Shown here one piece after another: positions 46,262 through 49,234 of a stretch of 64,000 nucleotides of DNA. The notes below the pieces were generated by a model. The model was not told the origin of the DNA. It did not search any database and worked only from the letters and a program-made list of their open reading frames with translations. The translations under genes and the position numbers were made by a program. Source of the stretch: Streptomyces sp. ICBB 8177 (GTDB taxonomy: Bacteria > Actinomycetota > Actinomycetes > Streptomycetales > Streptomycetaceae); the NCBI RefSeq assembly GCF_003144095.1, contig NZ_NSKH01000003.1:444086-508085 (forward strand), written 5' to 3'. Position 1 is the first letter of the stretch, and each line of letters begins with the position of its first letter.

Positions 46262-46909
46262 ATGCGCGTCAACCGGATCCTGCTCCCCGCCGTCCTCGTC
46301 GTCCTGGCCCTGGTGATCCAGGTCAGCGTGCTGGCCCGGCTGCACCTGCCGGGCGCGGTCCCCGACCTGCTGATGCTGGTCGTCCTGGGCCTGGCGATGA
46401 CCTACGGGCACGTGGCGGGCTGCCTGATCGGCTTCTTCGCCGGGCTGCTGGCCGACCTCGCCCCGCCGGCCGACCACGCCGCCGGGCGCTACGCCCTCGT
46501 GCTGTGCGTCATCGGCTACCTGGCCGGCCTGGCCAAGCCGGAGAACGGGCAACTGCGCTCCGCCGCGCTGCCGATGACGGTCGTCGCAGGAGCCGCCGTG
46601 CTGTCCACCCTGCTGTACGCGAGCGTGGGCGCCCTGGTCGGTGACACCGCCGCCCGCCACGTCGGCATCGTCAGCCTGCTGTTCACCGCTCTCGTCTACG
46701 ACCTGCTGCTGGCACCGTTCACCGTGCCGTGGATCATGGCGCTGGCGCGACGGCTGGACCGCGACCCGATGGCCGCGGACTCCGGCGCCGCGGGCGGCAG
46801 CCCGTACCGCTGGATGAGCCCGGGCAACGCCCGCTCGGGGAGCCGGCTGACCCGCATCCGCCCCGGCGGCCAGCGCGACAGCCTGCTCAAGGGAGGCCGC
46901 AAGCTGTGA
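46262..46909 (+). CDS. mreD: rod shape-determining protein MreD
   Basis: A 215-aa integral membrane protein with five predicted spans (first: ILLPAVLVVLALVIQVSVLA) and a basic C-terminal tail (SRLTRIRPGGQRDSLLKGG). It starts 3 nt after mreC. Its last codons contain GGGAGG followed by GTGAG overlapping the stop, which looks like the original translational start signal for the next gene, now displaced by the tandem repeat. Confidence 0.93.
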   Translation: MRVNRILLPAVLVVLALVIQVSVLARLHLPGAVPDLLMLVVLGLAMTYGHVAGCLIGFFAGLLADLAPPADHAAGRYALVLCVIGYLAGLAKPENGQLRSAALPMTVVAGAAVLSTLLYASVGALVGDTAARHVGIVSLLFTALVYDLLLAPFTVPWIMALARRLDRDPMAADSGAAGGSPYRWMSPGNARSGSRLTRIRPGGQRDSLLKGGRKL

Positions 46910-47013
46910 GTTCCCACCCGTCGCCCGCCACCACCCTCAGCGGAAGCGCTACGCGCCATTCCCACCCGTCGCCCGCCACCACCCTCAGCGGAAGCGCTAC
47001 GCGCCATGTCTAA
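46906..47013 (+). CDS. 35-aa ORF made by the tandem repeat between mreD and mrdA
   Basis: GTG 46906 overlaps the mreD stop (GTGA) and has GGGAGG at ideal spacing. It reads through both repeat copies (each encoding HPSPATTLSGSATRH) and stops at TAA 47011-47013, eight bases past the ATG of mrdA, in another frame. It may be translated and hand ribosomes to mrdA by re-initiation. It is probably a by-product of the repeat rather than an old gene. Confidence 0.4.
   Translation: MSSHPSPATTLSGSATRHSHPSPATTLSGSATRHV
46911..47006. repeat. perfect 48-bp tandem duplication at the mrdA start
   Basis: Two identical adjacent 48-bp units (46911-46958 and 46959-47006), each starting TTCCCACCCGTCGCCC and ending GCTACGCGCCA. 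The second unit supplies the A of the mrdA ATG, and its AGCGCT core is palindromic. The unit resembles short GC-rich intergenic repeats of streptomycetes (from memory, unverified). Confidence 0.92.
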
Positions 47014-49234
47014 TATCCCCGAGACGGGTCGCACCCAGCGGGTGACGATCCGTCTGGTCATCCTCCAGATCCTCGTCGTCTCGCTGCTGCTGACGCTCGG
47101 CGGCAGGCTGTGGTACCTCCAGATCCGCGACGGGCAGCAGTACACCGCGGAAGCCGCGAGCAACAACATCCAGAACGTCGTCGACCCCGCCGTGCGCGGC
47201 TCGATACTCGACGACCGCGGCGTGCCGCTCGCGGACAACCAGACCAAGCTGGTCGTCACCGTCAACCGCACCGACATGATGCAGATGAAGGACGGCGGCA
47301 AGGCGGTGCTGACCCGGCTGGCCGGTGTGCTGGGCATGTCGTACCAGGACATCGCCGACCAGGTCCGGCTCTGCGACGCGCACACCCCCCGCCCGTGCTG
47401 GAACGGCTCGCCCTTCCAGCCGGTCCCGATCACCGACAAGGCCACCAGCCAGCAGGCGCTGGAGATCATGGAGCGCCGGGAGGACTTCCCCGGCATCACC
47501 GCCCAGCCCACCGCCGTACGGCACTACGGCGCCCCCAGCGGTGCCAGCGCCGCCCAGGTGCTCGGCTACCTCTCGCCGGTCACCGACCAGGAGATCCAGG
47601 CGTCCATGAAGAACGGACAGCCCACCCTGGAGCGCTCCGACCAGGTGGGCCGCTCGGGCCTGGAGCACACCTACGACAGCGAGCTGCGCGGCAAGAACGG
47701 TGTGACCCGCTACCAGGTCGACAACCGCGGCCGGGTCATCGGCAACGCCGGTGACACCCCGGCGCAGCCCGGCAACGACCTGGTCACCAGCCTCGACTCG
47801 CGCGTGCAGGCCCTCACCGAGAAGGACCTGAACCAGGCGATGCAGGAGGCCCGCAAGACCTACGACCCGGTCACCCACGAAAACTTCAAGGCGGACTCCG
47901 GCGCCGCGGTCGTGATGGACGTGCACACCGGCCAGGTCATCGCGATGGCCAGCGAGCCGACGTACGACCCCAACGAGTGGGTCGGCGGCATCTCGGAGAA
48001 GGACTACCAGGCACTGACCGACCCCTCCTCCGACTACCCGCTGCTCAACCGCGCGATCCAGGGCCAGTCGGCGCCCGGTTCGACCTTCAAGGTCATCTCC
48101 ACCTCGGCCGCGGCACAGGCCGGTTACGACCTCGGCGCCAGCGACTACCCCTGCACCTCCAGCTTCTCCATCGGCAACCAGGTCTTCCACAACGACGAGA
48201 ACGAGTCCTACGGCGACATCAGCATCGGCCGCGCGCTGGAGGTCTCCTGCGACACCGTCTTCTACCGGCTCGCCTACGACCAGTGGCTCAAGGACGGCGG
48301 GAACAACCCGAAGAACCCCAAGGACTGGTTCTACAAGACCGCCCACGAGTTCCACCTCGGCGAGCCGACCGGCATCGACCTGCCGGGCGAGGTGGGCGGC
48401 CGCGTCCCGGACCGGCAGTGGAAGAAGGACTACTACCAGGAGATGAAGAAGTCGTGGTGCGCCCAGGCCAAGACGGGCAAGCACGACTACAGCACCGACA
48501 TCGCCCGCGAGGACTGCGCCGACGGCTACCTGATGCGCGCCGGTGACTCCGTCAACTACGCGATCGGTCAGGGCGACACCCTGGTCACCCCGATCCAGGA
48601 GGCGATGATCTACTCGGCCATCGCCAACGGCGGCACCCTCTACCAGCCGACCATAGGGAAGGCCGTGGTCAGCGCCGACGGCAAGAAGGTCAGCCCGATC
48701 GCGCCGAAGGCGGTCGGCAAGCTCCCGGACTCCCCGTCCACGCTGAAGTACATCGACAACGCGCTGGCCGGCGTCATCACCGACGGTACGGCGGAGTGGA
48801 AGTTCGGCGGCTGGCCGCAGAACAAGATCACCCTGCACGCCAAGACCGGTACCGCGGAGGTCTACGGCAAGCAGACCACCTCGTGGTTCTCCACGTACAC
48901 CAAGGACTACGCGATCGTGATGACGATCTCGCAGGGTGGTACCGGTTCCGGTGGCTCCGGTCTGGCGGTGCGCGACATCTACAGCCACCTGTACGGCGTC
49001 CAGTCCAACGGCTCGATCGACCCCGGCAAGGGCATGATGCCCACGCCGCAGGTCGCGCTGCCGAAGATCAACGCCGACGGGCTCGTCTCCCAGGCGTCCT
49101 ACGACGTCCCCGGCCCCGACGCCTTCGTCAACTCCCTGGAGGGCGGCTCGTCCGGGCCGGGCACGGACACCCTGACCGCGCTGGAACCCGACCGCCACCA
49201 GAAGCTGCCGTTCGCCCGGAGGTACCAGACGTGA
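47006..49234 (+). CDS. mrdA: penicillin-binding protein 2 (transpeptidase of the elongation/spore-wall complex)
   Basis: A 742-aa class B PBP. One N-terminal span (RLVILQILVVSLLLTLGG), a dimerisation/pedestal domain, and a transpeptidase domain with SxxK as APGSTFKV, SxN as GDSVNYAIGQGD, and KTG as HAKTGTAEVYG. It crosslinks peptidoglycan with RodA as glycosyltransferase. The ATG at 47006 is the last base of the 48-bp repeat; homologues begin with the same NIPETGRT residues, so the start is right, but the only upstream signal is a weak GGAAG. Its stop overlaps the rodA start (GTGA). Confidence 0.95.
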   Translation: MSNIPETGRTQRVTIRLVILQILVVSLLLTLGGRLWYLQIRDGQQYTAEAASNNIQNVVDPAVRGSILDDRGVPLADNQTKLVVTVNRTDMMQMKDGGKAVLTRLAGVLGMSYQDIADQVRLCDAHTPRPCWNGSPFQPVPITDKATSQQALEIMERREDFPGITAQPTAVRHYGAPSGASAAQVLGYLSPVTDQEIQASMKNGQPTLERSDQVGRSGLEHTYDSELRGKNGVTRYQVDNRGRVIGNAGDTPAQPGNDLVTSLDSRVQALTEKDLNQAMQEARKTYDPVTHENFKADSGAAVVMDVHTGQVIAMASEPTYDPNEWVGGISEKDYQALTDPSSDYPLLNRAIQGQSAPGSTFKVISTSAAAQAGYDLGASDYPCTSSFSIGNQVFHNDENESYGDISIGRALEVSCDTVFYRLAYDQWLKDGGNNPKNPKDWFYKTAHEFHLGEPTGIDLPGEVGGRVPDRQWKKDYYQEMKKSWCAQAKTGKHDYSTDIAREDCADGYLMRAGDSVNYAIGQGDTLVTPIQEAMIYSAIANGGTLYQPTIGKAVVSADGKKVSPIAPKAVGKLPDSPSTLKYIDNALAGVITDGTAEWKFGGWPQNKITLHAKTGTAEVYGKQTTSWFSTYTKDYAIVMTISQGGTGSGGSGLAVRDIYSHLYGVQSNGSIDPGKGMMPTPQVALPKINADGLVSQASYDVPGPDAFVNSLEGGSSGPGTDTLTALEPDRHQKLPFARRYQT

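Follow-up and report, generated by a model that had tools for sequence, protein, structure and literature searches.

The mreD-mrdA junction of Streptomyces sp. ICBB 8177

In the window, by which the whole analysed stretch of 64 kb of DNA is meant, mreD is followed by mrdA, the gene for the elongation transpeptidase PBP2 (Table 1). Between the two genes lies the best-scoring tandem repeat of the window (46911-47007 by Tandem Repeats Finder; period 48, 2.0 copies, 100% match, score 194), and its two identical 48-bp units separate an old GTG start codon (46906-46908), which overlaps the mreD stop codon TGA as GTGA (46906-46909) and follows GGGAGG after 9 nt, from the present mrdA ATG, the A of which is the final base of the second unit (47006). 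A leader open reading frame of 35 codons begins at this old GTG, extends across both units and ends 8 bases inside mrdA in a different frame, with an overlap of 8 nt between leader and mrdA in this window and with the stop codon TAA (47011-47013) supplied by the mrdA beginning ATG TCT AAT. These features had been set out in a preliminary description made from the letters of the sequence, and all were recovered, including the two perfect units (46911-46958 and 46959-47006), GGGAGG-N9-GTG at the mreD stop (46891-46908), the shared A and the leader with its stop in another frame.

On the sense strand, the 48-bp unit has no stop codon in any frame, and the repeat places GGAAG, a Shine-Dalgarno-like sequence that is weak in this lineage, approximately 12 nt 5' of the mrdA ATG. 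The degenerate core of the repeat family described below matches two sites only in the window, with none predicted from shuffled sequences. Folding of the whole junction was not above shuffles, either as mRNA (z +0.28) or as single-stranded DNA (z -1.3 and -0.7). Because the nearest genome, G001, has a single unit at the same mreD-mrdA position, the doubling of the unit in this strain is probably a local duplication.

Table 1. Features at the mreD-mrdA junction, in window coordinates
Feature	Positions	Strand	Basis and remarks
mreD	46262..46909	+	ORF; MreD identity confirmed by TIGR03426 (70 bits); TGA overlaps the old GTG start (GTGA)
GGGAGG, Shine-Dalgarno sequence belonging to the old mrdA GTG and now to the leader	46891..46896	+	Sequence; retained in G001, G014, G034
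Leader ORF, 35 codons (MSSHPSPATTLSGSATRHSHPSPATTLSGSATRHV)	46906..47013	+	Sequence; GTG start, TAA at +5 of the mrdA ATG; homologous leaders in relatives
Repeat unit 1, 48 bp	46911..46958	+	Tandem Repeats Finder; family core 46917-46956; profile and R1 matches
G-quadruplex-type motif of unit 1 (four C3 tracts)	46913..46936	-	Family motif, frequency in genome-derived and shuffled copies given in the text
Hairpin of unit 1, (A)GCGC-TAC-GCGC(C)	46945..46957	+	Family hairpin with compensatory changes; basal pair here A.C
Repeat unit 2, 48 bp, identical	46959..47006	+	Tandem Repeats Finder; family core 46965-47004; R1 E 2e-14
G-quadruplex-type motif of unit 2	46961..46984	-	As for unit 1
Hairpin of unit 2, abutting the mrdA ATG on its 5' side	46993..47005	+	As for unit 1
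mrdA (PBP2)	47006..49234	+	PBP2/MrdA identity confirmed by TIGR03423 (564.7 bits); N-terminus conserved in relatives

A dispersed repeat family with a covarying hairpin

The 48-bp unit represents a dispersed repeat family (approximately 50 bp) present in Streptomycetaceae, Amycolatopsis, Streptomonospora and Allosalinactinospora. It was matched in 37 of the 61 genomes of relatives, and the degenerate core was recovered from 89 contigs of Streptomyces, Streptantibioticus, Streptacidiphilus, Kitasatospora, Amycolatopsis, Streptomonospora and Allosalinactinospora. According to a covariance model, copy number varies widely, from at least about 90 in G026, 81 in G034 and 64 in G014 to 0 in several other genomes, with 11 in the genome studied here. 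The core pattern matched G026 59 times in forward orientation, with 0 matches of a reversed-pattern control. The preliminary description had suggested a search for further copies; such copies do exist in this genome, among them one at hemA-hemC, and the unit is no one-off insertion but part of a family that crosses genera. The family consensus reads CGCCCGCCCGTCGCCCACCACCACCCTCAACGGAGGCGCTNCGCGCCGC, with conservation dropping steeply beyond approximately 50-55 bp.

The 3' part of the repeat forms a hairpin with a stem of 5 bp and a TNC loop. Three of the five pairs were changed on both sides (11 cells versus 1.0 in shuffles). As the search pattern fixed most stem positions in the scan set, covariation was also counted separately on genome-derived copies, which show stems such as GGCCC/GGGCC, GGTGC/GCACC, GGAGC/GCTCC and GTTGC/GCAAC. 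This abundance of compensatory changes indicates selection acting on the hairpin as nucleic acid, be it single-stranded DNA during spread or RNA. On the opposite strand, four G3 tracts forming a G-quadruplex-type motif occur in 66% of genome-derived copies versus 11% of shuffled copies.

A search of Rfam with the repeat gave chance-level matches only, far under the gathering scores, and a riboswitch or thermosensor identity was rejected, no Rfam family having matched. Equally, a phage or plasmid origin was rejected: there was no phage match and none in viral contigs, and one Streptomyces replicon of 2.8 Mb matched. In the open-access literature, searches for Streptomyces repeats, REP, MIRU and strings of the unit sequence turned up no account of this family.

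Insertion sites in genes and at stop/start overlaps

The copies form 223 distinct arrays, 182 single and 41 tandem, with a dominant tandem period of 54 bp (the spacing in 38 of 66 cases). Intragenic copies lie predominantly in frame, with 34 in frame versus 5 shifted in a count that includes partly pattern-selected copies and is taken as the looser one because a stricter classification (18 in frame and 4 other, two of the latter real gene junctions) left most copies unclassified. Comparison with empty relatives defines individual inserts: HemA of G029 has gained exactly 16 codons versus its congeners (hemA at L044:680-2074) and AroB of G021 and G008 18 codons. The aroB copies (L268, L269, L270) comprise those of G021 and G008 plus a rearranged one in G022, with the same AroB site occupied in two genera; both hemA and aroB are genes of the essential type. 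In-frame copies are also found in helD.

Another type of site is the 4-base overlap of stop and start codons, ATGA; such overlaps and other start-codon sites together hold only a minority of the copies. At the DUF4177-RidA junction, G026 and G006 carry the element, G014 has a shortened form, and the site is empty in G013, G001 and the genome studied here (G000). G013 reads ...caggcATGAGCGCG, and G026 and G006 read ...agtcATGA-50 bp-ATGAG(C/T)GCC, that is, 54 bp more with the ATGA doubled and both genes intact. Likewise, the hemA-hemC ATGA overlap is filled in this genome and in G001 and empty in G014 and G008; the copy of this genome (L163, G000:C22:620439-620493) provides the start codon and the N-terminus MTAARSASVEGGGGRREG of hemC. 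With all copies pooled, TCAT, which is ATGA on the other strand, appears at a single exact offset to either side, and the distance between short direct repeats in the flanking DNA peaks at 54 bp. Since an insertion in ATGA that duplicates four bases leaves both genes intact, survival of both genes alone may account for the preference for this site.

The mreD-mrdA junction in relatives

A direct GTGA/ATGA overlap of mreD and mrdA is kept in many relatives (for example G022, G031, G021 and G011), which supports the earlier proposal that the old GTG with its strong Shine-Dalgarno sequence represents the ancestral type of mrdA start. The repeat had also been rightly read as genuinely inserted between this start and the present ATG. 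The suggested comparison of junctions showed that the site is variably occupied, with the repeat at the mrdA start in several genera beside empty relatives. G008 carries one unit with the direct repeat TGACCAAC on both flanks, and its congener G022 has an empty site; the repeat or a remnant also occurs in G001, G014, G026, G034, G017 and several genomes of genera g7 and g10. Given this distribution over several genera, the repeat at mreD-mrdA would be either old with losses or recurrent. The insertion distance at mrdA is 52-56 bp, as compared with the clean 54 bp at other sites, and a target duplication is only vague at the mrdA site of this genome and G001.

Leaders in the repeat-carrying relatives measure 19 to 54 codons, stay open and stop at +1 (TGA overlapping ATGA) or +5 (TAA) of the mrdA start; in the related junction of G138 the stop is at +14. 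The count covered 45 junctions that contain a spacer and have a start codon overlapping the stop of mreD. In 20 of these, among which 16 spacer lengths occur, the leader stop is at +1; it is at +5 in six, at +14 in one and at -3/-4 in three, and the remaining 15 mostly have a repeat-borne or second leader that begins at a later GTGA/ATGA and ends at +1 or +5; as the relatives share ancestry, these junctions are not fully independent. The second mrdA codon is TCT or ACT where the frame needs TAA, giving ATGTCTAA or ATGACTAA. A second codon that makes TAA accompanied frame 1 in 13 of 14 cases versus 0 of 12 otherwise (Fisher p 2.7e-6, from a tally by eye that ignores shared ancestry); by eye as well, L451 obtains its TAA via AGT and L450 has AGT without need. 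In Streptomyces relatives free of the repeat, leaders are 6-49 codons long and end at +1, and in repeat-free genomes of genus g10 (L478-L486) a short leader between mreD and mrdA has its TGA at +1, exactly at the mrdA start. These repeat-free leaders indicate that the leader relay is a general property of the mreD-mrdA junction, which the repeat would have lengthened in frame.

A probable relay of translation to PBP2 and alternative explanations

The best explanation, and one considered probable, is that a MIRU-like, frame-neutral element relays translation to PBP2. A dispersed actinomycete element of approximately 50 bp that settles at gene starts without silencing the gene would have landed, presumably by transposition, at the mrdA start codon, upon which the original ribosome binding site and GTG would start a stop-free leader through the repeat. 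As the leader stop lies on the new mrdA start, ribosomes finishing the leader would open the hairpin beside the ATG and restart there, proceeding from mreD via the leader to mrdA. When the unit was later duplicated in this strain, the extra 48 bp would have added 16 codons with frame and stop kept and the relay unchanged. The tiny repeat-borne open reading frame thereby probably hands ribosomes on to mrdA instead of cutting mrdA off from mreD, and re-initiation, already considered in the preliminary description as a route to PBP2, is likely. Some direct initiation of mrdA is possible given the GGAAG before the ATG. As a counterpoint to the relay, stop-free frames are common in GC-rich DNA.

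Openness and position of the leader might alternatively be a by-product of the purging of insertions that kill mrdA, with mrdA initiated independently from a Shine-Dalgarno sequence inside the repeat (GGAGG/GGAAG). Many copies have GGAGG approximately 12 nt before the start, for example AAAGGAGG in G008 and GAAGGAGG in G014, but a spacing of approximately 12 nt across a hairpin is poor for a Shine-Dalgarno sequence, and neither the association of leader frame with second codon nor the +1-ending leaders of repeat-free relatives would be explained, which makes this alternative rather unlikely. Still less can be said for the view that the insertion uncouples mrdA from mreD, so that PBP2 depends on a weak site and is tuned by repeat copy number. 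The two units in this strain versus one in the sister species and the weak GGAAG fit this view, but leader frame and stop are conserved over many lengths and genera with second codons that switch to make TAA, similar leaders occur in repeat-free relatives and 48 bp is frame-neutral. The broken coupling that had been concluded from the sequence of this strain is not supported, and an effect of unit number on the level of PBP2 is at most possible.

Concerning the mover, REP sequences are dispersed and hairpin-bearing with GGAG-like bases before the hairpin. The present family is likewise dispersed and has a hairpin, which shows covariation; the bases before it resemble GGAG but vary (GGAG/CGAG/CGAA). 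It differs in that its C-rich 5' half is much longer, that copies lie in frame inside genes and that direct target repeats occur. Mobilisation as a REP-type element by a RAYT/IS200 (Y1) transposase is very doubtful and was rejected, as PF01797 is absent from this genome and from G026, G034, G014, G008, G002 and G011, most of them repeat-rich, and the Y1-richest genome, G021, has few copies. Plain local slippage or an assembly artefact can be dismissed for the unit, since, despite the identity of the two units and their probably local doubling, even a single unit has hundreds of relatives in the dispersed family.

More far-reaching, and about evenly balanced in our judgement, is the proposal of an undescribed mobile 50-bp family over several actinomycete orders that would add 54 bp, a frame-neutral quantum of 18 codons, per insertion, double ATGA so that overlapping genes survive, spread possibly via a single-strand mechanism involving hairpin and G-quadruplex and dispense with a known transposase, and which at mrdA would have become part of a conserved leader relaying translation to PBP2.

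Likeness to known repeats and implications

With miniature inverted-repeat elements (MITEs) the family has in common that it is non-autonomous and accompanied by a target duplication of a few base pairs, but its consensus has no terminal inverted repeats and there is no known parent transposon. Rickettsia palindromic elements are small repeats located in frame in unrelated protein genes, to which they add a peptide (PMC10969869). The entry in frame into unrelated genes such as those of HemA and AroB is alike, whereas these elements are approximately 150 bp long and palindromic and the present repeat has 50-55 bp with the 5-bp stem at one end only, adds 16-18 codons and also occupies stop/start overlaps. 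MIRUs insert at start codons with an internal open reading frame coupled to the gene at a spacing of -4 nt (PMC12548453), and senX3-regX3 contains three MIRUs of 77 or 53 bp (PMC4213456). Alike are the short length, the dispersed as well as tandem occurrence, the location at start/stop overlaps and the coupling at -4 nt, to which the mrdA leaders with TGA at +1 and the ATGA junctions correspond. Unlike MIRUs, the repeat has a length of 50/54 bp, a covarying hairpin with C-rich tracts and many in-frame intragenic copies, and belongs to other actinomycete orders; the comparison concerns arrangement and insertion sites.

If the proposed reading is true, a MIRU-like element can invade operon junctions and even essential genes and leave them intact, since reading is preserved by its length and its open frames. 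Its spread and its mover would then become testable in tractable Streptomyces, and translation of PBP2 would proceed by way of a conserved leader located between mreD and mrdA. For annotation, inserts of 16-18 residues such as AARSASVEGGGGRRAG would represent mobile DNA and not protein function, and start codons close to repeats may be misplaced.

Additional copies were observed at further sites. Several Streptomyces have in-frame inserts at one shared site in an ABC-transporter-like gene (L085, L089, L111, L119) and equally at one shared site in a HelD-like helicase (L073, L090, L095, L116, L129), which are useful for dating insertions. An apparent purK of this genome contains a worn copy (L231, G000:C20:548672-548713), and a better preserved one occupies the same site in Streptacidiphilus fuscans (L108). 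Larger tandem arrays of up to 5-6 units occur in Streptantibioticus ferralitis and relatives (L139, L308, G026:C25:83402-83733) and are potential strain-typing loci in the manner of MIRU-VNTR.
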